DNA of 20,446 nucleotides from a virus (IMGVR_UViG_3300031608_001144:1-20446); one strand, 5' to 3'; positions 2,817-15,702 are shown, numbered from the stretch's first letter. Numbers and translations: made by a program. Notes: generated from the sequence alone by a model not told the origin.

Positions 2817-3110
2817 TTACTTAGCGACTTTGCCCCTCTGTTGGAAGTTATTACCTGTCGCAACTTTGAAGTTGGTCTCTAGTTGAGGTTTCGCATCAAA
2901 TACAGTCTGTATAAGACCTGCATTGATTGTGAATGTGTACTCTTTAGCAAATGGTATCCATGGTGCCATGTTGACTTCCATAGTTCCGTCTTTTACTTCC
3001 ATTAGGCATACTTGAGCTTCACTAATGACATAATCACCATTCCACTTTCGTTCTACGAAACCTATTAGCACTTCCCCTGTGTCAAGTCTGATACATCTTA
3101 CTCTACGCAT
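2817..3110 (-). CDS. Conserved phage protein, possibly Sm-like barrel
   Basis: A 97-residue protein beginning MRRVRCIRLDTGEVLIGFVE. The N-terminal two-thirds alternates hydrophobic strands with turns (LDTGEVLIG, DYVISEAQVCLME, GTMEVNMAPWIPF), the pattern of a small Sm/LSm-type beta barrel as seen in some RNA-binding proteins. That fold call is inference from strand pattern, not from a recognised signature. The start overlaps the lysozyme stop by 8 nt and the stop is one base from the next ATG, so the three genes are probably translated from one mRNA. Confidence 0.75.
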   Translation of the reverse strand: MRRVRCIRLDTGEVLIGFVERKWNGDYVISEAQVCLMEVKDGTMEVNMAPWIPFAKEYTFTINAGLIQTVFDAKPQLETNFKVATGNNFQQRGKVAK

Positions 3111-3558
3111 TTCTTACCATTTCCTGTAATTCAACTGAACGGCGACCAACTTGGCCAAACCACTTTGAGTCTTCCATTTCTACTGCCATCTTTTCCCAGT
3201 CTTCAGATACAACACCTTTCCACATGTTATTGAATTTGCCGAAACGACTTCCACCTAAGTTGAATGTCATATTGACTAATACATGTTGAATGTTTTCAGG
3301 AAGACTGTAAAAGTCCTCTCCACCTTTTGATTCGAATACATGGATTGCTTCATCGACATGTTTGTCGAAATCTGCCTCGTAATAACGGTCAACAATATCT
3401 TGACTGACTGGAGTTCCTGCTGGTTCTCCAAACTCTGAATCATCTTCTCTAATAAGATGCCCAACACCTAGTGTTAGATACCCTAGAGAATCTTCATAGA
3501 CTTCTAGTACTTCACCTTCGTGACGTTTGATTTGTTCTTTTAAAACATCTTTATTCAT
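3103..3558 (-). CDS. e: T4-type lysozyme (endolysin, GH24)
   Basis: Muramidase that hydrolyses peptidoglycan at lysis. The 151-aa length is close to T4 lysozyme (164 aa). The catalytic triad is intact with T4 spacing: E14 (in RHEGE), D23 (in YEDSLGY) and T29 (in LTLGVGH), against E11/D20/T26 in T4. Conserved LVNMTFNLGG and SKWFGQVGRR segments follow. There is no signal peptide, so it needs a holin to reach the cell wall; a holin-like gene lies at 16144-16317. An AAGGAATAAATC stretch precedes the ATG at 3558 and gives a good Shine-Dalgarno. It is a stand-alone enzyme rather than a fusion to baseplate gp5. Confidence 0.93.
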   Translation of the reverse strand: MNKDVLKEQIKRHEGEVLEVYEDSLGYLTLGVGHLIREDDSEFGEPAGTPVSQDIVDRYYEADFDKHVDEAIHVFESKGGEDFYSLPENIQHVLVNMTFNLGGSRFGKFNNMWKGVVSEDWEKMAVEMEDSKWFGQVGRRSVELQEMVRNA

Positions 3559-5421: not shown

Positions 5422-5563
5422 TTCTTTCTATCTGCCTCTGTTGTTTTGCTTTAACTTCTTTTAAGTCTTCACTTATCAGATAAACAACCATTAGTAGTTT
5501 GTCTATTCTTTCTATTAGTTCGAAATGGTTATCAGTAGTCTCTTGTTCTCTTATGTTCTTCAT
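5411..5563 (-). CDS. Small coiled-coil protein, 50 aa
   Basis: A 50-residue protein, MKNIREQETTDNHFELIERI at the start, with heptad-like spacing of I, L and V followed by a basic, Gln-rich tail. I chose the ATG at 5563 because it overlaps the upstream stop as ATGA; an open frame extends 11 codons further up to 5596 but would overlap the DUF4338-like gene more deeply. It overlaps the downstream GTG start by 11 nt. No family recognised. Confidence 0.65.
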   Translation of the reverse strand: MKNIREQETTDNHFELIERIDKLLMVVYLISEDLKEVKAKQQRQIERSGH

Positions 5564-6684
5564 CTTATAATATCTATGTCTGCATTCTTTGACCAAACTT
5601 CTAGTTCAGTTCTTAATCTACCATCTCTCTGGAGATTTTCATATCTTTTAGTTGCCATCTTTTTCCACCATGTATAAACATTGTCTAATTCAAATCTGTC
5701 AAAGTTTACATTCTTCACTAAGGTATCTGTCTCTGAGTTCATATACTCTTTTACATTTGTGTAACCATATGTACCTAAGTATTGTCTCTTTCTTTCTGTA
5801 AGATTCTTTGCATCTATAAAACATTGTTTGAATGGTCTTAGCATTCCACTATCATTTTTTGCGAGTGAGTTTCTTATAATAGATATCATCTTACCTTGAG
5901 TCTTCAACTTTCTGCTTGATGCCTCTGGTTCAACTAGAGGTACGCCATTGTTTTTGTTCTCGAACCAGTCTTTAAGATGGTGATACTTGTCATCATTGAT
6001 ACTAGGTACAAAATCTGAATCAGTTAGACCAATGAATTTTAGATAAGGTTTCATGCCGTCATACATTGATGATGATTTACTTGAACCATATAACGATGTA
6101 GTTTCAAACATACAATAGTTTGTATTGTACTTCTTGTTCAATTCTCTTCTGGCGTAATGCGAAGTGCAAATAGCGGCAAGAAGTTTACCACCTAGATAAT
6201 TGAAACCAAATGGTTGAGTTGGTATGATATTGAAACCCATGATTGTAGAATCATTGAATCTCTTCATCGTATCTTTGTCCATTGTATTTAGAGGTTTGCC
6301 TAAGAACTCGTTACGAGGTTTACTGTTAATAGTAGGACTGCCGAATCTAATGAATCCAACAATCTTGTTTGTATTCTTTTCGTAAACTACCCACTTTAAA
6401 GTTTTGCCTGGTATAGATTTCTGTATCATTTGAGATGCAACTATGTCAATGTAATCATCATAGATTGGCATTTCTCTACACACGAACTCCATATCATTTG
6501 GGTGCATAGTAAAGTCTTGAAACATGTCATCTTCTGGACCCATGCCAAATAAGGACGCAGGTCTCTCTGCCATTTTCTCAAGTTTCACCTTGCGTAAATA
6601 GTCATCGATTCTGTCGAAATTAGAATAGTAGTCAATAAAAATTTGACCTACATATTCAGCATCTTGTTTTGAAAGTATTAACAT
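5560..6684 (-). CDS. DUF4338/DruA-like protein
   Basis: A 374-residue protein. The central region follows the pattern I associate with DUF4338, the family of DruA from the Druantia defence system: IVGFIRFGSP, an R-N-E-F-L-G segment, GFNIIPTQPFGFNYLGGKLL, then CMFETTSLYGSSKSSSMYDG, where DUF4338 proteins usually have an E-T, a G-T-x-Y and a glycine. The N-terminal third (about 1-100) and the Lys/Arg-rich C-terminus (about 255-374) I do not recognise. The catalytic role of the family is not established to my knowledge. In this phage it is the first gene behind a strong promoter and heads the cassette with the cytidylyltransferase and glycosyltransferase. The assignment is from remembered family pattern and needs a profile search. 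Confidence 0.6.
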   Translation of the reverse strand: MLILSKQDAEYVGQIFIDYYSNFDRIDDYLRKVKLEKMAERPASLFGMGPEDDMFQDFTMHPNDMEFVCREMPIYDDYIDIVASQMIQKSIPGKTLKWVVYEKNTNKIVGFIRFGSPTINSKPRNEFLGKPLNTMDKDTMKRFNDSTIMGFNIIPTQPFGFNYLGGKLLAAICTSHYARRELNKKYNTNYCMFETTSLYGSSKSSSMYDGMKPYLKFIGLTDSDFVPSINDDKYHHLKDWFENKNNGVPLVEPEASSRKLKTQGKMISIIRNSLAKNDSGMLRPFKQCFIDAKNLTERKRQYLGTYGYTNVKEYMNSETDTLVKNVNFDRFELDNVYTWWKKMATKRYENLQRDGRLRTELEVWSKNADIDIIR

Positions 6685-6744: not shown

Positions 6745-7290
6745 TTATGCTACGAAGTCATCATCAGGTGACCAAGAGCAACCAGTTAGTCCGCCTGCCT
6801 TAAGTGCCTGAAGAGTTCTTAACACTTCGTCTGCATTTCTACCTGTATCTAATGCGTTCACTGATACATGTTGAATCATACGGTCTTTATCAATAATGAA
6901 TGTTGCCCTATAGCAAACACCTTCCATATGATTGACAATCCCGAGTTCTTCTGAAAGATACAACCCACAATCTGCGGCCAATGAATGTCTGATATTACCT
7001 ATCAACTCATTGTCGTTTTTCCATGCAAGTTTACAAAACTCATTGTCACCACTAATACCAATGACATTGGCTTCGTCTACTAAAATATCCATTGCAGAAA
7101 TTTCTGTAGGACAAATAAATGTAAAGTCTTTAGGATAGAAATAGATTACTGACCAATCATGTTTATGTGGCGTGTAACTACCTTCTACTGAGACTGATAC
7201 AAGTTCATTACTAGGATTAACTCCTTGTAATTCAAAGGGTGGGAATTCGTCCCCGACTGTTAGCATTCCGTTATTATAAGGGTATGACAT
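6745..7290 (-). CDS. 2-Cys peroxiredoxin, AhpC/Prx type
   Basis: Thiol peroxidase that reduces hydrogen peroxide and organic hydroperoxides, recycled by a thioredoxin- or AhpD-like partner. At 181 aa it has the usual AhpC length. The active site is YPKDFTFICPTEI with peroxidatic C60 in the PxxxTxxC motif (P53, T57), and the partner arginine is R128 in YRATFIID. A C-terminal cysteine, C171 in TGCSWSPDDD, is placed like the resolving cysteine of 2-Cys enzymes. C86, C108 and C126 are additional. A GGAGAAC Shine-Dalgarno lies 5-8 nt before the ATG at 7290. The gene follows the tRNA on the same transcript and ends at a strong terminator, so tRNA and peroxiredoxin form a two-gene unit. A likely auxiliary metabolic gene protecting the infected cell from oxidants. 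Confidence 0.95.
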   Translation of the reverse strand: MSYPYNNGMLTVGDEFPPFELQGVNPSNELVSVSVEGSYTPHKHDWSVIYFYPKDFTFICPTEISAMDILVDEANVIGISGDNEFCKLAWKNDNELIGNIRHSLAADCGLYLSEELGIVNHMEGVCYRATFIIDKDRMIQHVSVNALDTGRNADEVLRTLQALKAGGLTGCSWSPDDDFVA

Positions 7291-7310: not shown

Positions 7311-7384
7311 TGGAGCGGAGAGAAAGATTTGCACTCTCGTCTGTCTAATGGTATTAGACCGTTTTTCTAGTAAACTATCTCCGC
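7311..7384 (-). tRNA. tRNA-Gly, anticodon ACC (atypical)
   Basis: A 74-nt cloverleaf on the minus strand with encoded CCA. The acceptor arms GCGGAGA/TCTCCGC pair fully, with T at the discriminator position and CCA next. D-arm: GTTT/AAAC with a 7-nt loop. Anticodon arm: GTCTA/TAGAC with loop ATACCAT, so T33 is followed by ACC. The variable loop is 4 nt. T-arm: GAGAG/CTTTC with loop TGCAAAT. Glycine identity is supported by G1-C72, C2-G71, G3-C70, U73 and C35-C36. Odd points are A34 in a Gly anticodon, an A32-U38 pair, one G instead of GG in the D-loop, and G in place of T55. It may be functional or mildly decayed. A promoter lies directly upstream. Confidence 0.8.
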
Positions 7385-7435: not shown

Positions 7436-7885
7436 TTATTTAATCTTAATTTCTAGAGGTTTCTCTTCTTCTGGAATCTCTCTTTGAACTGAGATTATAA
7501 GAATGCCGTTTACAACTTCTCCAGTCTTCACTTTAAAGTAGTCGCCAAGAGTCCAACTTTTCATGAAGTTTGCCTCTGAGATTCCTTTATGTGTGAATGA
7601 CGGAAAGTCATTACCTTCAACTATGTTCTTTCTCTCGTATCTGGTTTCTTTCTTCCCTTCTACTTTGAGAATGGAATCTTTAAACTCAATAGAGAGTTCA
7701 CTCTTATCGAAACCTGCAACTGCAAGTTCAATGAGAAATTCGTCTTTTGAAGACTTAATCACATTGTAAGGTGGATAGTTGGATTGTGGATTATTTGAGA
7801 TTCTCTCGATATCATCGAAGAGTCTTTCAAATCCAATTGAAAATGGTCTGAATTGACCAATATTGCTGGTGTTTATGCTTGTCAT
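7436..7885 (-). CDS. hsp20: Small heat-shock protein Hsp20 (IbpA-like)
   Basis: ATP-independent holdase chaperone of the alpha-crystallin family, cytoplasmic. The 149 residues show the IbpA-like N-terminus (FERLFDDIERI), a complete alpha-crystallin domain from about 38 to 135 (PYNVIKSSKDEFLIELAVAG, LKVEGKKE, then the GISEANFMKSWTLGDYFKVK segment), and a C-terminal I-x-I-type motif (LEIKIK) used for oligomer assembly. An AAAGGAG Shine-Dalgarno lies 6 nt before the ATG. The leader is about 110 nt long, begins at a T4-late-like box and contains a hairpin. Hsp20 genes are common in marine T4-like phages, where a role in virion assembly has been proposed. Confidence 0.96.
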   Translation of the reverse strand: MTSINTSNIGQFRPFSIGFERLFDDIERISNNPQSNYPPYNVIKSSKDEFLIELAVAGFDKSELSIEFKDSILKVEGKKETRYERKNIVEGNDFPSFTHKGISEANFMKSWTLGDYFKVKTGEVVNGILIISVQREIPEEEKPLEIKIK

Positions 7886-8479: not shown

Positions 8480-8517
8480 ATTATACAACATCACTCATGT
8501 TATGTATAGGTGGTTTT
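8480..8517 (-). promoter_or_regulatory. Promoter for 73-aa gene
   Basis: Minus strand: AAAACCACC (8509-8517) abuts TATACA (8503-8508), followed by 17 nt and a perfect TATAAT (8480-8485). The upstream block overlaps the stop codon of the preceding gene, so the promoter separates the curli/cyclase operon from the small genes below it. Confidence 0.72.
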
Positions 8518-8857
8518 ATCTTAAAGGACAAGTTGCCTTATTAGCGAGTTGTTGATTCGTTATAACAACTGCACCAGTGAATATGGTCAATGCGTTAATC
8601 TCTTCTATTTTCCAATAGTCTTGACGGAAGATTGTAAACATTAAGAGTGCCTTATGTAATATGAGATGGTCTCTATGTGGAACAGGTGGTAAAAATGGAT
8701 TTGATTCTTGAATGCAACTGTACTTTAGACCTTCTACAGTAGAATGTATATCTAGTGCTTGAACGAAGTAAAACCAAAACCAGTCCTTTTTATCAGTATC
8801 AGATTGGAGTGTATATTGTGACGAGTTCTTCTTTTCCCTTAACTTTAATTCTATCAA
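8516..8857 (-). CDS. Small membrane-associated protein with ExNP motif; start uncertain
   Basis: The C-terminal 95 residues form a convincing gene product beyond the cyclase stop: WFWFYFVQALDIHSTVEGLK, then ESNPFLPPVPH, then a hydrophobic helix and another hydrophobic stretch (ALTIFTGAVVI). The order aromatic helix / D-x-x-x-T / E-x-N-P-x-L / x-P recalls small phage and bacterial membrane proteins of the DUF5658 kind (inference). The start is unclear. The frame has no ATG between 8921 and the conserved part; I give TTG at 8857, which limits overlap with the cyclase to 59 nt. The frame stays open up to an ATG at 9091 with AAGGAA ahead of it and a signal-peptide-like N-terminus, which would overlap the cyclase by 293 nt. 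Last gene of the curli/cyclase operon. Confidence 0.6.
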   Translation of the reverse strand: MIELKLREKKNSSQYTLQSDTDKKDWFWFYFVQALDIHSTVEGLKYSCIQESNPFLPPVPHRDHLILHKALLMFTIFRQDYWKIEEINALTIFTGAVVITNQQLANKATCPLR

Positions 8858-10640
8858 CTTTAGTGAATGCTCTGTCTGGACATTGGCTATAAGTTCTTTC
8901 TGATAACAACAAGTCCACCCCATCATAATTTCTCGTTTGGCCTTCGAGTCTAGCGCCAAGGTTGACGGCATCGCCGATGACGGAATAGTCAAATCGTAAT
9001 TCTGAGCCCATGTTTCCGACAATACATTCGCCTGTACTAATCCCGATACCGATATTAATAGGAGGCAGATTAAGTGGTTTAAGTTCTTCATTTAGTTCCT
9101 TGGTTGCATTTAATACTTCTAACGCTGATTTTACTGCCATATCGGCATGATTAGGACACTCTAACGGAGCATTCCAGAAACTCATGATGCAGTCGCCCAT
9201 ATACTTATCTATGGTACCACTATTATTTAGAATTATCTTAGTTTGCATGTCCAGAAACTTGTTGATGAGTTCGACTAGACCTTCAGGATTGTCTTGTTGC
9301 ATGTAGTGTTCGCTTATGGGAGTGAATCCGATTATGTCCATAAACATGAAGGTCATCTCTTTTCTATCTCCGCCTAATCTTAGTTTAGAGGGGTCTTTTT
9401 GTAGTTCCTCAATCATGTCAGGAGATAAATACTTTTGGAACTGCTTCTTTATTTGTTGCTTTTCTTGGAAAGTTACATAGTATTTGTTGAAGGACGCATG
9501 ACCAAAAACCACAACGGAGCTTAACGATGACCAGAAAATATCGAAAAGAACGAGATTGTAAGACCACATATAATAACTCCCACCCACCTGAAGTACTACG
9601 AAACCTACTGAAACTATCGCCGAATAGGCTGTGGGAAGTCTGTAGACCGATACCAGTATTCCTAGAAGGACTATCAGAAGAAGAACGGTTTCTACGAATT
9701 CAAGATAGTCGGATACATGTATTTGAACTCCTGACGAAACGGTTTGGATTAGGTGTGCTTGAACTTCGTGGGGATACATTACACCCATTGGGGTTGAAAC
9801 TGGAATAGATAACCCCTCAGCGGTTAATCCATAGACTAGAATCTTATTCTCTAAATTAGATTCTCTTAAGTCTGCGAATGAGATAGACTCGAATTCGTTC
9901 CAATACGATATCATCAAGTCAGCGCTTGATGTGGTCTCTATTGGTTTATCTCTGCCCATTTTAACCCACTCGATACCTGCATCAGCAGTTACCCTAGTTT
10001 GATAATTGGGTTGGTCATAGTATGCTCTGAGAACTTCGAATCCTAAACTTGGATATAATTGACCATTCGCCTGGATTATCAGCGGAACCGCTCTGTTTGT
10101 TCCGTCAAAATTAGGTGTATTCGCCACAGGTGGTGTGGCAACAGTGACCCCCATACCCCATGTACTGTTTTGTAGTTTTGGAATTGGCGATACTAAACCT
10201 GGAAAGTTCCACACATGGTCTTGTATATCACCATCACCAAATACTGAGGTGTTTACGAATGGTGCATTACCAGATTCTTTTTGTATTGTGGGTGCTGAGG
10301 ATAATATCGTTAGTCTGTTTTCTAATGCCTCTGCAAAGACATCATCTCCACCTAATCTATCTGGTTCTGCAAATAGTATATTGAATACATGAGTGTTTGA
10401 GAAATGAGTTTCCCATAATGTGTCTGCGTATATATCTCTAGGGAAAGGATACTGACCATACTTCTCTATTGCCTTCTCATCGATGTTGACCAGTAGAATG
10501 TTGTCCACTATCACTTTTTCTTTTTGTTGGTGTAGAACATCGAAGTAGGACCATCTAATATTGTCTATTAGATAAGGCGACCATATCTTTATGCCCACTA
10601 GGGCGATGATGGTTATTAAAACTGTTTTCCAATTATACAT
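8799..10640 (-). CDS. CHASE2-domain class III adenylate cyclase
   Basis: Membrane cyclase expected to make cAMP from ATP in response to an extracytoplasmic signal. Order: N-terminal TM helix (about 5-22), periplasmic CHASE2 domain (about 25-310), three TM helices (about 315-335, 338-355, 362-383), a short linker, and the catalytic domain (about 425-613). The catalytic set is complete: metal-binding D435 (FMFMDIIGFT) and D483 (KYMGDCIMSF), K479 plus S553 at the purine-selecting positions, which favour ATP over GTP, and N560/R564 (VNLGARLEG) for transition-state stabilisation. The full length matches bacterial CHASE2 cyclases, so it is not a fragment. Upstream is a FecR-domain gene, a frequent partner of CHASE2 cyclases in bacterial genomes. 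It lies in the curli operon. Such an intact sensor cyclase is remarkable in a phage. Confidence 0.95.
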   Translation of the reverse strand: MYNWKTVLITIIALVGIKIWSPYLIDNIRWSYFDVLHQQKEKVIVDNILLVNIDEKAIEKYGQYPFPRDIYADTLWETHFSNTHVFNILFAEPDRLGGDDVFAEALENRLTILSSAPTIQKESGNAPFVNTSVFGDGDIQDHVWNFPGLVSPIPKLQNSTWGMGVTVATPPVANTPNFDGTNRAVPLIIQANGQLYPSLGFEVLRAYYDQPNYQTRVTADAGIEWVKMGRDKPIETTSSADLMISYWNEFESISFADLRESNLENKILVYGLTAEGLSIPVSTPMGVMYPHEVQAHLIQTVSSGVQIHVSDYLEFVETVLLLIVLLGILVSVYRLPTAYSAIVSVGFVVLQVGGSYYMWSYNLVLFDIFWSSLSSVVVFGHASFNKYYVTFQEKQQIKKQFQKYLSPDMIEELQKDPSKLRLGGDRKEMTFMFMDIIGFTPISEHYMQQDNPEGLVELINKFLDMQTKIILNNSGTIDKYMGDCIMSFWNAPLECPNHADMAVKSALEVLNATKELNEELKPLNLPPINIGIGISTGECIVGNMGSELRFDYSVIGDAVNLGARLEGQTRNYDGVDLLLSERTYSQCPDRAFTKVDRIKVKGKEELVTIYTPI

Positions 10641-10687
10641 AGATGTCTACCAGATTACCCTTTTTCCACTCGACTAATCTGTATTTT

Positions 10688-10843
10688 CTAAACTTGTTCA
10701 ACTGTTGGCCACGCAAAGAAAAATATGTAAAGACATATTAATAGTAGAGATGTGGCGAGGATAACATTCCAGGCTTGAGACCATTGTTGTTGTTTCTTCT
10801 TTTTACGATACTCGTTGACTTCTTTTATAACTCGTTCATTCAT
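10688..10843 (-). CDS. 51-aa single-TM protein
   Basis: ATG at 10843, one base after the stop of the second curlin-like gene (TAG A ATG), and TAG at 10688-10690. The N-terminal half is strongly basic and polar (YRKKKKQQQWSQAW); a TM helix follows (about 27-44, containing ILATSLLLICLYIFFF), then a short tail. By the positive-inside rule the N-terminus stays in the cytoplasm. It sits between the curlin-like gene and the cyclase in the same operon. No family recognised. Confidence 0.7.
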   Translation of the reverse strand: MNERVIKEVNEYRKKKKQQQWSQAWNVILATSLLLICLYIFFFAWPTVEQV

Positions 10844-10844
10844 T

Positions 10845-11651
10845 CTAATTGCCTTGTGTTATGTTTACTGCACACCCACCAACTGTATAACAACTTTGAG
10901 TTAGTGTGTAGTTTTGTGTACTATTACCTGTTTGAGTTACATTTAGGTTAGTTGATTGTGTTCCTGTTAGGGTTATGTTTGCGTTATGAGCGCCTTGTCC
11001 ATCTTGTACTATAGAACCTGTATTACCATCAGTATATGATTTCAATGTGAGGTTTTTCTGTCCATCTGTTTCTTGGATTACATAAAATGAATTATTGTCT
11101 GCATACAGGTATATTGTAGCATCATGAGCTGAATATAGATTTTGACTACCATTTCGTTGATACCCTGCTAATGCATTATTATTACCGTGGATATCTAGAG
11201 TAAGTTGATAGTTACCACCTTCATCACCGTCACTTGAAAATGTAGTATCGGTTGACCCACTTAAAGTCAGACCTTGACCCCAACGGACGGAATTACTGTC
11301 ACCTTTAATATGAAAATCTATATTTGATTCTGCACATGAAGAACCCCTAGTGCAACTTTGTTCAAAGTGAATGTTATTAGAATCACCATTCAAGTCTCCG
11401 CCACCAGTTTGTTGTGAACCCCAAGTAGGTACCCAAGAAATTCTATTCTTGTTTCCCACTTGCTTGATTAGTATTGAATTTGATGCACCACCTAGTGAAA
11501 AGATAGTGTCGTTGTCGTAACCTATTTGAGTTATATTGATACCAAGATTGTCATTGGACTGACTTCCTGTTGTGTTCACATCAACCTTGTTGTCATCGTC
11601 TGCGACAACTAACAAGGGTAACATAATTAATAATGATAAAATCTTTTTCAT
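10845..11651 (-). CDS. Curlin-like secreted amyloid subunit (second)
   Basis: A 268-residue protein with a signal peptide (MKKILSLLIMLPLLVVA). The mature part is built from degenerate repeats rich in N, Q, G, S and T with alternating hydrophobic residues, such as INITQIGYDND, ILIKQVGNKN, LNVTQTGNSTQ and a terminal VNITQGN. This is the N/Q-x-Q-x-G-x-x-N rhythm of CsgA/CsgB curlin strands. All four cysteines occur as two CX5C pairs (C100/C106 and C254/C260), each followed by A-x-x-N-I or A-V-N-I, which suggests small disulfide loops. CsgG and CsgF lie upstream in the same operon, so this is a probable secreted substrate. Whether it is the major subunit or the nucleator cannot be told from the sequence. 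Confidence 0.82.
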   Translation of the reverse strand: MKKILSLLIMLPLLVVADDDNKVDVNTTGSQSNDNLGINITQIGYDNDTIFSLGGASNSILIKQVGNKNRISWVPTWGSQQTGGGDLNGDSNNIHFEQSCTRGSSCAESNIDFHIKGDSNSVRWGQGLTLSGSTDTTFSSDGDEGGNYQLTLDIHGNNNALAGYQRNGSQNLYSAHDATIYLYADNNSFYVIQETDGQKNLTLKSYTDGNTGSIVQDGQGAHNANITLTGTQSTNLNVTQTGNSTQNYTLTQSCYTVGGCAVNITQGN

Positions 11652-11652
11652 T

Positions 11653-11808
11653 CTAGATTATCCATAAGAGTAGTAAGCCCAATAATAATCCTTCAGACCA
11701 AGCAACCCACAACATTTGGTATTCGTCCCAACCAAAATAGTCTGCTACTTCCCATGTCAAATTTTCGTGCCACTGTCTCATCTTTTTAAAGTCAATATTA
11801 ATATTCAT
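11653..11808 (-). CDS. 51-aa protein with C-terminal TM helix
   Basis: ATG at 11808, TAG at 11653-11655, followed by one base and the ATG of the second curlin-like gene. An AGGA Shine-Dalgarno overlaps the FecR-gene stop. The N-terminal 40 residues are polar and unusually Trp-rich (five W); the last 12 residues are a hydrophobic run of Leu, Trp and Ile. Together with the upstream residues MLWVAWSEG it could make a tail anchor or membrane hairpin. The lack of a signal peptide suggests an inner-membrane protein. No family recognised; tight spacing on both sides supports translation. Confidence 0.7.
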   Translation of the reverse strand: MNINIDFKKMRQWHENLTWEVADYFGWDEYQMLWVAWSEGLLLGLLLLWII

Positions 11809-11816
11809 AAGTTTTC

Positions 11817-12983
11817 CTAGTTCTGCCTGATAACAATCTCAATGCCATCGCCTTCTCCGAAATTGATAATACCTGTGTATCCATCAACTACGATATCAGC
11901 GAAACCAGCACCACCGGCTGCTATCTGGATATTTATAACTCCATTAACACTTCTAAAAAGAACCAAGTCGCCGTCTTTTTCAAATACATTAAACTGCGAG
12001 TCTTTGTTAAAACCACCTGAAACACCTACAAGTCTGAAACCTGCAACTTCGTTTCCTCCGCCTTTACCCCCTTTTCGGGATAAGGACACTGTGGTCTTTT
12101 CTAGTTCTTCAATAACGTCAAGTAAGTCGGTTAAAAAATCAACATCAAGGAAATCGATGTCCAGCTCAGAGAAATCAGCCTCTGTGGTGTCTGCCAAGGC
12201 GTCAGCCTCTAGTTCGTTGAATTCTAAGAAATCAACATCTAGTAATCCTTGGTCTGAATCTAAGTCATCTTGATATGATTCTTCCATCGCCTGTCTAATC
12301 TCCGTTGGAGGATTGACAATAAACATATTGTCGATTAAGTTAGGTGTAATGCCTAAAACTGTAACCGCTGTAGTTGGTGCAGTATCAAATGATGCGACTG
12401 TCGTGGCTTGATATGCCTCTGTTAGTACAATCTCACCACCGTCATTATATACTACTATTTCACCAGATGATGCACCTGTCTCTTCATCTGGAAGTAAGAT
12501 TACCATTGTCCTTCCTAACTCATCAATGGTGGTCGTGAAATCTGTCCCTCTCATTGTTATGTTAGCTGTAGGTGTTGATACATCTATGTTTGATTTTGAA
12601 ATTCTTTTACCAGCACCGGAAGCAAAACGAGCTGTACCTCTGGCCATTCTGATAGCCATTTTTGATTTACTTGGGTCTGGGTCATAGTATGCCTCGTCTA
12701 TGTATACGAGGGAATTTTCTGTTAGACTAAGTTCTTCTTCGTCTAGAAATTTGATAAGTAAACGACCATTGGCCGTTTCTGCTTCATCATACATGTTGAT
12801 GTCTGAACCGACATCTGTTTTTAATCGTGTGTCATTTCGTGTAATCGATGTTACACCTTTCGCCTCAATCACGTCACCAATGGGCTCAGCCGCAAGACTG
12901 AACCCACAAGTGAACAGTAAAGAAAAACCGAGAACTCTACGAGTCGCCGGCTGAATCTTTCTGACTGATTTGAATAACTGCAT
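11817..12983 (-). CDS. Secreted FecR-domain protein
   Basis: A 388-residue protein. A Sec signal (n-region with RKIQPATRR, hydrophobic core about 18-31, cleavage near AA/EP) leads into a FecR domain (about 35-200), whose hallmark is VSTPTANITMRGTDF at 135-149. There is no TM helix, so it should be periplasmic or exported rather than a classical FecR membrane anti-sigma factor. An acidic linker (about 232-295) contains three LD[VI]DFL motifs. The C-terminus (about 310-388) is glycine-rich with regular beta strands. FecR-domain proteins of this kind are often encoded beside CHASE2 cyclases; here the cyclase is three genes downstream. It may be the ligand or modulator of the CHASE2 sensor (inference). 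The start overlaps the first curlin-like gene by 47 nt. Confidence 0.88.
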   Translation of the reverse strand: MQLFKSVRKIQPATRRVLGFSLLFTCGFSLAAEPIGDVIEAKGVTSITRNDTRLKTDVGSDINMYDEAETANGRLLIKFLDEEELSLTENSLVYIDEAYYDPDPSKSKMAIRMARGTARFASGAGKRISKSNIDVSTPTANITMRGTDFTTTIDELGRTMVILLPDEETGASSGEIVVYNDGGEIVLTEAYQATTVASFDTAPTTAVTVLGITPNLIDNMFIVNPPTEIRQAMEESYQDDLDSDQGLLDVDFLEFNELEADALADTTEADFSELDIDFLDVDFLTDLLDVIEELEKTTVSLSRKGGKGGGNEVAGFRLVGVSGGFNKDSQFNVFEKDGDLVLFRSVNGVINIQIAAGGAGFADIVVDGYTGIINFGEGDGIEIVIRQN

Positions 12984-13671
12984 TATCGCTGGTGATGTTC
13001 AAATTAATGTTTGAATTAGGTGTTGCACACCCTCCGCCGCCTGAGACACATGTACCAGATACCTGGATTATGTCAACGTCAGCACTGTCGCCAGTGTGGT
13101 CAAAATTAATTGTATGAGCACCATCTTTCTGCAATGTATTGATATTATTAGAAGCACCAGTAACATCAAAGTTCCATGTTAAATCGTTTGCCTCCCAATC
13201 TATATCCCAAACATTACTACTTCCGATAAGGACTAAATCTGCATTGAGTCTCTCTGCGGTTGCAACCTTTCCTTGGTCCAAATCATATGTATTTGAACTT
13301 CCAGTCATGTTGAAATTAATGTCTGAGTCGTCAGCTGAACCGGTGGCACCAATGTTCCAATCGATTGAGTTACTTGAACCTGTCATTAATACACGGTACT
13401 TTGATGAATCAGCAATGACCGGACCAAACAGTAAGTTTTGGTTACCTATCATGTCGATATCGAATTCCATGGAAACACCAGTTACGGTCATATTTGCACC
13501 GGAACCAGAACTGAAGTTATTCAGTCCCATTTTGTTACCAAAACCAATTTGGTCTACATATAATTTCAATGTGTCTCCAACTTGGGTTACCATAACTTCG
13601 TTATCATCAGTAGCAGCGGCAAAAACGAATGGTGTCGACATTAGCAATAAAATACTTAAAATTTTATTCAT
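12937..13671 (-). CDS. Curlin-like secreted amyloid subunit (first)
   Basis: A 244-residue protein starting at the ATG at 13671, which gives a proper signal peptide (MNKILSILLLMSTPFVFA) and has an AGGAGAAGAAG ribosome site; the open frame extends 11 codons further but without a signal. The mature part has repeats built around G-S/A-S-N and alternating D/N and hydrophobic residues: IGNQNLLFG, TGSSNSIDWNIG, TGSSNTYDLDQG, IGSSNVWDIDW, TGASNNINTLQ. Its only two cysteines form a CX6C pair (C208/C215) near the C-terminus, followed by P-N-S-N-I. It overlaps the CsgG stop by 8 nt and the FecR start by 47 nt. The repeats are farther from CsgA than those of the other subunit, so 'curlin-like' rests on repeat rhythm, secretion signal and the CsgG/CsgF neighbours. 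Confidence 0.75.
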   Translation of the reverse strand: MNKILSILLLMSTPFVFAAATDDNEVMVTQVGDTLKLYVDQIGFGNKMGLNNFSSGSGANMTVTGVSMEFDIDMIGNQNLLFGPVIADSSKYRVLMTGSSNSIDWNIGATGSADDSDINFNMTGSSNTYDLDQGKVATAERLNADLVLIGSSNVWDIDWEANDLTWNFDVTGASNNINTLQKDGAHTINFDHTGDSADVDIIQVSGTCVSGGGGCATPNSNINLNITSDNAVIQISQKDSAGDS

Positions 13672-14635
13672 TTTCTTCTTCTCCTGTTGATAAAGTAGAA
13701 TCATCTTCTAACTCATGTAACTCATTTTTACCTGAAGCCTCATGAGGATGTCGATGACCGTCCTTTATTTTCCAAAGACGCCTATCGTGTCCTTGGTAGA
13801 TTAATTCCAGTACGGCAGCCTCGATAGCTGTTCGTACTGCGTATGTCACGGACTCATTATTACCCACTCCGTCCTCGATTTCGATAAGTTGTGTTCCTTC
13901 TTCAATGAATCGGAATACATCTCCACCTGAACCATAAGAAAGGATAGTCTTTCTCGTTTGGACATTTAACAAAACTTCGCCTGTGAGAACACTAACTGCC
14001 CTCATAGAAACTGTAACAGCATCTTGACGATACTGTCGACTAAAACCAATCCCGAGGGTTCTTGCACCTCGACCACCTGTTAGTAAATTGGAATCATAGC
14101 CTATTATGCCACCTTCTATTACAATTCCTGCAAATAGTAATGGCGCTAATTCTTGGTACTTCTCTTCGCCACTTGCCTTGGCGAAATCTTTTCTTGCACT
14201 TCTAATAATCTGTCTTTCTCGAACTAAGTTGTCTATACCGTTTCTCTCAACAACTCTAAACCATTGTCCGTTACCTGCCGTTTTGAGTGCATCAATAACC
14301 ATTTCGGTTGCACCTTGAGTTACAGCAGTAGAGAATGATGCGAGATTACTCTCTGGTTTTCTTTGACCTGTCTTATCTATAAAATTGTATACTGCGACAA
14401 CAGGTTTTTGGTCAGCAGCAGGAAGATTCAATAATGCCAAATGAGAAGGCAATCTAACAACAGTTGGTTGGTCAATACAAATGTATTTTCTGGACATTAC
14501 TTTGTTTATGCCAGTGAATACATCTTTGTTGAAACCATTCTCATAGTTACAATCTTTAGGGTCTTCACTCCACTGAGGTATTGAGGCACATCCTGTCAGG
14601 AGAAGTAAGGCAGATAATATGAATCTAGTTATCAT
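13664..14635 (-). CDS. csgG: CsgG outer-membrane curli secretion channel
   Basis: Lipoprotein that forms the nonameric outer-membrane pore for curli subunits. The lipobox is LLTGC with C16 as the lipidated residue. Strong CsgG signatures follow: PVVAVYNFIDKTGQ (about 78-91), FSTAVTQGATEMVIDALK (about 101-118), RVVERNGIDNLVRERQIIR, and GGIIGYDSN then GGRGARTLGIG in the strand region. At 323 residues it is longer than E. coli CsgG (277) because of an N-terminal insertion with two extra Cys (C29, C53) and an acidic C-terminal tail. The stretch that forms the pore constriction is KPESNLASFSTAV (93-105), one residue longer than in E. coli and lacking the Tyr of the E. coli constriction. CsgF lies 3 nt upstream. 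Confidence 0.96.
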   Translation of the reverse strand: MITRFILSALLLLTGCASIPQWSEDPKDCNYENGFNKDVFTGINKVMSRKYICIDQPTVVRLPSHLALLNLPAADQKPVVAVYNFIDKTGQRKPESNLASFSTAVTQGATEMVIDALKTAGNGQWFRVVERNGIDNLVRERQIIRSARKDFAKASGEEKYQELAPLLFAGIVIEGGIIGYDSNLLTGGRGARTLGIGFSRQYRQDAVTVSMRAVSVLTGEVLLNVQTRKTILSYGSGGDVFRFIEEGTQLIEIEDGVGNNESVTYAVRTAIEAAVLELIYQGHDRRLWKIKDGHRHPHEASGKNELHELEDDSTLSTGEEENE

Positions 14636-14638
14636 CTA

Positions 14639-15127
14639 TTATCCCAAGTCTGGGTCTTGGCCAAAGTTTCCAGTTCCTACAGGTATCTCAATAACTGAGG
14701 TCGTTCCGTCTTCAGCAATAATAGTCATTCTAATCATCTCTGTACCATCGTCATTGGTTATAACCTCATAAGTTACTGTATTTCCTTCTAGAACAAATGA
14801 ACCAAATCTTACTGAACCATCGTTTGAAAACATTGATTCGACTAATTGTTTTGCCATCTGAGAATAGATTCTACTCTCTAGGTTACGAATAAATTTTGCC
14901 ATGGTTGTATTGTCTTCAGCTCTCTCGGCAGCCTTTCTTGCAGCTTCAAGTGAATCCATGATTTCTTTTTTTCTTGTGAACTCTTGGTTCTCAACAGTTA
15001 GGTAATGAGATGCAGTACCTTGACCACTGAAACTAGGGTTCTTAAATTTGTGTACGATATCAGCACTTATAGCGCTCATAAAGAATATTCCACCGAATAG
15101 TATTGCTGTGACTAAGTATTTGTTCAT
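14639..15127 (-). CDS. csgF: CsgF-like curli assembly factor
   Basis: Partner of CsgG that sits at the outer mouth of the pore and links secretion to fibre nucleation. A signal peptide (MNKYLVTAILFGG ... SAISA) is followed at once by DIVHKFKNPSFSG, equivalent to the FRNPNFGG N-terminus by which E. coli CsgF inserts into CsgG. The middle is a charged helix (about 50-100), and the C-terminus has beta strands (FGSFVLEGNTVTYEVI, GTTSVIEIPVG) like the CsgF beta domain. At 162 residues it is about 25 longer than E. coli CsgF. The start overlaps the upstream stop by 4 nt (ATGA), and csgG follows after TAA TAG. No CsgE homologue is visible in the window. Confidence 0.92.
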   Translation of the reverse strand: MNKYLVTAILFGGIFFMSAISADIVHKFKNPSFSGQGTASHYLTVENQEFTRKKEIMDSLEAARKAAERAEDNTTMAKFIRNLESRIYSQMAKQLVESMFSNDGSVRFGSFVLEGNTVTYEVITNDDGTEMIRMTIIAEDGTTSVIEIPVGTGNFGQDPDLG

Positions 15128-15393
15128 TTTCGTTTCGCCTCTTCTTGTAACCTTTGTACTTTCATATTCTCCTTCATTTCTAAAACTACATCAACTTTCT
15201 GTTGTAATCTTATCAAATCTTGGTCTAACATTCTTGTCTGGTCTATTACTTTAATCAATTGAAAATGCATCTTTTCAATTTCGGGTTCTAGTTTTTCACC
15301 TACAAACCACCAAATATAATATATGAAATAGCCAAGTCCTACTGACATGACTATTGGGAATCCGTAATCAGATATAACTTGAGCGATATCCAT
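15124..15393 (-). CDS. TM/coiled-coil protein B, YvrJ-like N-terminus
   Basis: An 89-residue protein. The N-terminal TM helix (about 10-30, DYGFPIVMSVGLGYFIYYIW) is followed by about 55 residues of charged helix with heptad-like L/V/I spacing, predicted coiled coil, and a basic end (EEAKRK). I chose the ATG at 15393, which overlaps the upstream stop as TGATG. The GFPI ... GYFI pattern is shared with the preceding gene (GAPI ... GFFI), so the two are paralogues, and it recalls the short YvrJ family and holin-associated proteins (inference). It overlaps csgF by 4 nt, so it is translationally tied to the curli export genes. Confidence 0.8.
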   Translation of the reverse strand: MDIAQVISDYGFPIVMSVGLGYFIYYIWWFVGEKLEPEIEKMHFQLIKVIDQTRMLDQDLIRLQQKVDVVLEMKENMKVQRLQEEAKRK

Positions 15394-15689
15394 CAATCTC
15401 TCCTTACATCTAGTTTTTCGTCTTCTATGAAGTTCTCTGCTCTAGCGATTCGTTCTATGTCTGGTCTTAATTCCAACGCTGATGAAACTAACAGGTCTAT
15501 CTTAATCATTTCGTTTGACATGGTTCTTGCCCTATTCTCTAACGACTTACAAAACATTGTTAAAGTCGATATTGAGTCTACTACACCTTCTAGTATCTGT
15601 TTGATGACTATAAAGATGAAGAAACCCATCAGAATACTTCCTGCAATTGGGGCACCCACTTCACCTATTAGATTAAAAATCTCTTCCAT
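15393..15689 (-). CDS. TM/coiled-coil protein A, YvrJ-like N-terminus
   Basis: A 98-residue protein and the first gene of the curli operon. A TM helix (about 12-31) contains GAPIAGSILMGFFIFIVI; the remainder is a soluble helical region with a short acidic end. It is a paralogue of the next gene by its N-terminal G-x-P-I-x-x-S-x-x-x-G-F/Y-F-I pattern, while the coiled-coil halves have diverged. No Shine-Dalgarno is evident, and a T4-late-like TATAAATA lies only 5 nt before the ATG, so the mRNA may be nearly leaderless. The role is unknown. Possibilities include an inner-membrane scaffold for the secretion apparatus or a holin-like pair. Confidence 0.8.
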   Translation of the reverse strand: MEEIFNLIGEVGAPIAGSILMGFFIFIVIKQILEGVVDSISTLTMFCKSLENRARTMSNEMIKIDLLVSSALELRPDIERIARAENFIEDEKLDVRRD

Positions 15690-15694
15690 ACTCT

Positions 15695-15702
15695 TATTTA
15701 TA
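15695..15702 (-). promoter_or_regulatory. T4-late-like promoter of curli operon
   Basis: A perfect TATAAATA between the terminator of the preceding gene and the first curli-operon ATG, 5 nt before that ATG. A T4-type late transcript starts about 6 nt after the box and so would begin at the start codon itself. Confidence 0.6.

Follow-up and report, generated by a model that had tools for sequence, protein, structure and literature searches.

Genes for curli-type secretion have been described in ocean phages. According to PMC7029224 (2020), pelagimyophages carry CsgF and CsgG. A complete module that also includes two curlins, FecR and a cyclase is reported in PMC9599517 (2022) from pelagiphages of two families, together with expression of the module in metatranscriptomes. 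The same paper states that one or two histidine kinases invariably lie ahead of the module and that FecR and the cyclase are not found within bacterial curli operons. A role in lysis has been proposed for the cassette of Melnitz (PMC9004378, 2022), in which curlin genes were said to be lacking; contrary to that statement, the operon in the Melnitz GenBank record (MZ577097) names two curlin associated repeat proteins.

The DNA analyzed here, hereafter the window, is a 20,446-base record from a marine T4-like phage (IMGVR_UViG_3300031608_001144:1-20446) and probably represents part of a larger genome; all of its substantial genes are carried on the minus strand. A sequence-only reading had recognized in it a curli operon with two substrates, FecR and a cyclase, without CsgE, and had taken the whole combination to be unknown. 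The first part of that reading stood, but the second was wrong: the combination is present in GenBank records MZ577097 and KC465899 and is described in PMC9599517. The phage curli gene set is confirmed as real but had already been described in related ocean phages between 2020 and 2022. What is added here is its gene order in 80 loci, a late promoter, the identity of the two leading genes (memA and memB), an operon in Hyphomonas, the type of FecR protein and the absence of CsgE.

The T8SS module of HTVC008M (KC465899) consists of CsgF, CsgG, curlin, FecR, a second curlin and cyclase in the same order as in the window, and this pelagiphage module is likewise without CsgE. In the window, two one-helix proteins without a kinase domain stand where the published “histidine kinase” is located. 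Window CsgG is 47% identical to HTVC008M CsgG and 51% identical, over the matched part, to Melnitz CsgG. In Melnitz, as in the window, two small proteins are followed by CsgF, CsgG, curlin, FecR, curlin and cyclase, and a late promoter element stands before the first gene; the Melnitz operon lies between an ssDNA-binding protein gene and baseplate genes, whereas that of the window lies beside regA. A late promoter and a bacterial operon are not mentioned in the available parts of the pelagiphage module papers. The csgBAC-csgDEFG system of E. coli shares CsgG, CsgF and curlin-repeat substrates with the phage cassette, which differs in that CsgE was not found, FecR and a cyclase belong to the operon, the promoter is of the phage late type and the curlins are longer and less regular. 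A 1,499-base “Salmonella phage” record (OR851715) that contains csgG is probably a piece of host DNA or a short contig.

Operon layout, conservation and late promoter element

The cassette is flanked by T4-like genes, with gp45, gp44, gp62 and regA on one side and gp43 (at most 48% identical to phage records among the matches listed) on the other, as the sequence-only reading had placed it. The minus-strand operon begins with memA (15393..15689; 98 aa; phrog_18771, 5e-24) and memB (15124..15396; 90 aa; phrog_18771, 1.5e-24), the latter overlapping memA and CsgF by 4 nt each. These are followed by CsgF (14639..15127), CsgG (13664..14635), curlin-type repeat protein 1 (curlin 1; 12937..13671), a secreted FecR-domain protein (11817..12983), a 51-aa membrane protein (11653..11808; hydrophobic helix at residues 33-51; present in 21 loci), curlin-type repeat protein 2 (curlin 2; 10845..11651), a second 51-aa membrane protein (10688..10843; hydrophobic helix at residues 27-45; present in 9 loci), a CHASE2 class III nucleotide cyclase (8799..10640) and a small DUF5658-like gene (8516..8857; DUF5658 3.8e-4, below the cut-off). 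Adjacent genes overlap or lie at most 8 nt apart, with the exception of a 47-nt space ahead of the cyclase gene. Place and strand of CsgG, CsgF, both curlins, FecR, the cyclase and the four small membrane proteins agreed with those originally claimed.

The DUF5658-like gene likely starts at a TTG at 8857, and its portion behind the cyclase gene matches relatives. A longer ORF at 8516-9091 was rejected as an overlap artefact; its first 97 residues are encoded within the cyclase gene but in a different frame, and the signal peptide formerly ascribed to it, which falls there too, is not real. Elsewhere in the window, peroxiredoxin (AhpC/TSA) and HSP20 genes are present downstream of the cassette (6745-7290 and 7436-7885), HSP20 also coming after the cassette in some relatives. 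A tRNA-Gly with the anticodon ACC, unusual in bacteria, was predicted at 7311-7384, a protein matching DruA (Pfam, 3.6e-9), a name given to a component of the Druantia defence system, is encoded at 5560-6684, and a phage lysozyme without a signal peptide at 3103-3558. No psbA was found among the relatives tested, which therefore give no sign of a cyanobacterial host.

A scan of viral contigs yielded 584 confirmed CsgG relatives, from which 80 viral loci were kept. Profile mapping revealed the order memA-memB-CsgF-CsgG-curlin 1-FecR-curlin 2-cyclase in all 80 loci wherever the contig reaches, and within the same limit curlin 1 stays beside CsgG. The cassette flanks vary by group, many having regA and others a lysozyme gene, and the cassette thus stays together in different settings; the neighbours within it do not vary at random, a possibility that had been raised when the operon was first noted. 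Pairwise dN/dS between the window and relatives, for which dS was saturated in several pairs, was about 0.01-0.22 for cassette genes, including about 0.10-0.16 for curlin 1, and 0.23-0.45 for curlin 2. Conserved gene order across 80 viral loci, together with low dN/dS, shows that the cassette represents more than a chance association.

An exact match to TATAAATA, the T4 late consensus, is present at 15695..15702 on the minus strand; it begins at 15702, with its first base 13 nt ahead of the memA start codon. Among distinct relatives, NATAAATA occurs within 60 nt upstream of memA in 52 of 58, compared with 1.2 expected from shuffles that preserved base composition only, the relatives not being independent of one another; the full TATAAATA is found there in 39 of the 58. 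By contrast, NATAAATA was found upstream of memB in only 1 of 56, and upstream of CsgF, CsgG, both curlins, FecR and the cyclase in none of the distinct relatives, a large gene-to-gene contrast. The late element is situated just ahead of memA in Melnitz, and in HTVC008M it stands ahead of CsgF and ahead of an upstream gene. A generic scan for sigma-70 promoters and terminators gave no excess above shuffles. Expression late in infection, which began as a guess, thus becomes a supported inference on account of the conserved T4-type late promoter before memA.

Secretion components and curlin-type proteins

The CsgG match (Pfam CsgG, 1e-54) spans almost the whole model, consistent with an outer-membrane pore lipoprotein, and the window protein carries the lipobox LTGC and matches E. 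coli CsgG structures at 2.9e-50. The FSTAV motif, including the pore Phe, is kept in 81/81 CsgG sequences. The constriction residues Tyr51 and Asn55 of E. coli CsgG are not kept, which counts against the proposed curli cassette. CsgF (Pfam CsgF, 5.5e-14) possesses a signal peptide and the docking motif F-x-N-P-x-F-x-G (FKNPSFSG in the window), which is found in 77 of 80 homologues, the other three being without it in the start chosen; comparison of CsgF with PDB sequences gave no meaningful match. The CsgG and CsgF profile hits are accordingly not weak, as had initially been considered possible.

No CsgE was detected in five relatives of near-genome length in searches with a positive E. coli control, in agreement with the absence first noted in the window. 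Of the components of a type VIII (curli) system, the cassette therefore contains the CsgG pore lipoprotein, the CsgF docking motif and a curlin-repeat substrate but not the CsgE gate, and the absence of this gate from the five relatives counts against the proposed cassette. CsgE is described in PMC7029224 as boosting output without being essential. In the search for CsgH, the controls gave no match. In the absence of CsgE, the CsgG pore might remain open, which would suit the suggestion, made in PMC7029224 and PMC9599517, that the pore takes up large nutrients or cofactors during infection. As the conserved CsgF and both curlins would then be needless, we consider uptake very unlikely.

Both curlins bear signal peptides. 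Curlin 1 was taken to start at the ATG at 13671, although its longest frame begins at 13704. Scanned alone, the window proteins fall under the Pfam cut-off (Curlin_rpt 0.0021-0.0023 for curlin 1 and 0.016 for curlin 2), whereas homologues scanned singly matched Curlin_rpt (E ≤ 0.01) in 28 of 33 cases for curlin 1 and 18 of 29 for curlin 2, the best score being 1.1e-9. AlphaFold models built from within-family alignments were beta-strand stacks with mean pLDDT values of 83 (curlin 1) and 78 (curlin 2). Searches of a viral structure library returned named fold matches at E ≤ 0.001 that were all “Curlin associated”; against PDB structures, nothing was obtained for curlin 1 at E ≤ 0.001.

Stacked beta-strands are also found in many tail proteins, and curlin 2 gives weak tail-fibre fold matches. 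These are the features that would be expected if the curlin-like proteins were virion or tail parts lying beside csgGF by chance, and unrelated beta-helix tail proteins had indeed been named at the outset as what could overturn their identification. The signal peptides, the Curlin_rpt matches, the occurrence of the same gene order in a bacterium (see below) and the restriction of significant named viral folds to curlin-associated ones all speak against a virion role, which is highly improbable; assignment as tail proteins was rejected on the last of these grounds. We conclude that both repeat proteins are curlin-type.

Leading genes, FecR protein and cyclase

The paralogues memA and memB, of about 90-100 aa, each consist of one hydrophobic helix (residues 11-29 in memA) and a helical tail. 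No kinase family was present among the matches of 31 memA/memB homologues (E ≤ 0.5), and neither protein has the HisKA or ATPase domain of a histidine kinase. Judged by position, memA and memB are probably the published “histidine kinase”, and the leading genes are probably not kinases; we call them phage-type small membrane proteins. The recurrent weak match in their homologues was to YvrJ, and a short match to the holin phrog_4898 was obtained with memB (6.5e-4) and memA (0.012). The bacterial csgG loci that were inspected contained neither gene.

These properties form the basis of the main rival explanation, namely that the cassette times or performs lysis, with memA and memB acting in the manner of small holins at the inner membrane and with CsgG-CsgF opening the outer membrane. 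The two genes lead the operon, 16 loci (including L034, L042 and L050) have a lysozyme gene 142-750 nt upstream of memA, and a T4-type holin was not found in five large relatives, albeit in a search without a good positive control. However, the holin similarity is very weak, the lysozyme gene of the window itself is 12.6 kb from memA, and two curlins and a FecR protein under purifying selection are left unexplained. A lysis function is for these reasons doubtful.

The FecR domain (residues 69-157; Pfam FecR, 1e-9) is the only Pfam match of the FecR protein. A FecR sigma regulator combines a cytoplasmic anti-sigma domain, a membrane helix and the FecR domain; the phage protein does not have this architecture and, since it has a signal-peptide-like start and the anti-sigma domain is missing, is not a sigma regulator. 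Alignment showed that its C-terminal end resembles a curlin strand (IxINQxN) in most relatives, through which it could contact the fibre.

The cyclase (CHASE2, 4.6e-28; cyclase domain, 8.1e-18) keeps the metal and N..R motifs, with FMDI..F, KYMGD and DYSVIGDAVNLGARLE patterns, and KYMGD is present in 37/37 sequences. The metal-binding Asp pair, the substrate Lys and the transition-state Asn and Arg of class III adenylate cyclases are all present, and the predicted substrate is ATP. A FecR protein adjoining a CHASE2 cyclase was also observed at other loci in several alphaproteobacterial genomes.

A bacterial counterpart and the proposed function

A scan of species genomes revealed 80 loci. Seven of these come from MAGs assigned to Synechococcus, Rhodobacteraceae, Sphingobacteriales, Flavobacteriales, Saprospirales and Pirellulales, but look like phage contigs with the cassette that had been binned there; they were rejected as bacterial and were left out of the bacterial count. 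In Hyphomonas sp. TMED17, a 705-kb contig carries CsgF, CsgG, curlin, FecR and CHASE2 cyclase in a row amid bacterial genes, with an operon GC content near that of the flanks. The core order is the same as in the phage; the bacterial operon differs in having one 504-aa curlin in place of two shorter ones and in being without memA and memB. CsgE was not found in the Hyphomonas genome either (E. coli control positive). In a midpoint-rooted tree in which its branch is long, the TMED17 CsgG falls in a supported group with phage CsgG (99/92), apart from other Hyphomonas copies. This locus is an exception to the statement on bacterial curli operons in PMC9599517. No other full-length relatives of the FecR protein were found in 385 alphaproteobacterial genomes with a query alignment that included the Hyphomonas protein; further bacterial matches were confined to the FecR domain, placed in different contexts.

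The existence of a bacterial counterpart would fit cargo recently acquired from bacteria that does nothing for the phage. Against this stand the 584 relatives in one viral-contig scan, the low dN/dS and the conserved phage-type promoter; functionless cargo, already disfavoured by the selection data, is extremely improbable.

The sequences themselves document which genes are present and in what order, the conservation of the promoter element, the selection on the proteins and the conserved motifs. Taken together, they argue, with a probability that we put at about 0.6, for a type VIII (curli) secretion cassette that the phage carries and expresses late in infection, for which timing, export, fibres and cAMP signalling are envisaged as follows. 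The late promoter would switch the operon on, and the host Sec system would take the curlins, the FecR protein, CsgF and CsgG into the periplasm. Assembled CsgG would form the outer-membrane pore on which CsgF docks, and the curlins would exit through it without CsgE to build fibres on the cell surface, possibly with one curlin as nucleator. The envelope may be sensed, and cAMP raised, by the FecR protein and the CHASE2 cyclase, which also occur as a pair in bacteria.

Purposes for the amyloid like those offered in the sequence-only reading (superinfection exclusion, aggregation and release) appear across PMC7029224, PMC9004378 and PMC9599517, the first two having been raised in PMC9599517. 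Since the cassette appears late, superinfection exclusion is rated, as a guess, slightly above host aggregation as the benefit. No clumping was seen in cultured Melnitz infections (PMC9004378), which counts against curlins at the surface. A more specific scheme, in which a captured bacterial amyloid operon, the FecR/CHASE2 envelope sensor and memA/memB link amyloid display to the lysis timetable, with coating or tethering of the dying cell at progeny release, is unlikely.

If a late-expressed curli cassette is the correct reading, ocean phages would make their hosts display amyloid late in infection, a trait missing in the published SAR11 and OM43 hosts. The late promoter indicates when expression of the cassette should be looked for, the FecR protein is something other than an iron regulator, and the bacterial operon with the same core provides a laboratory counterpart.
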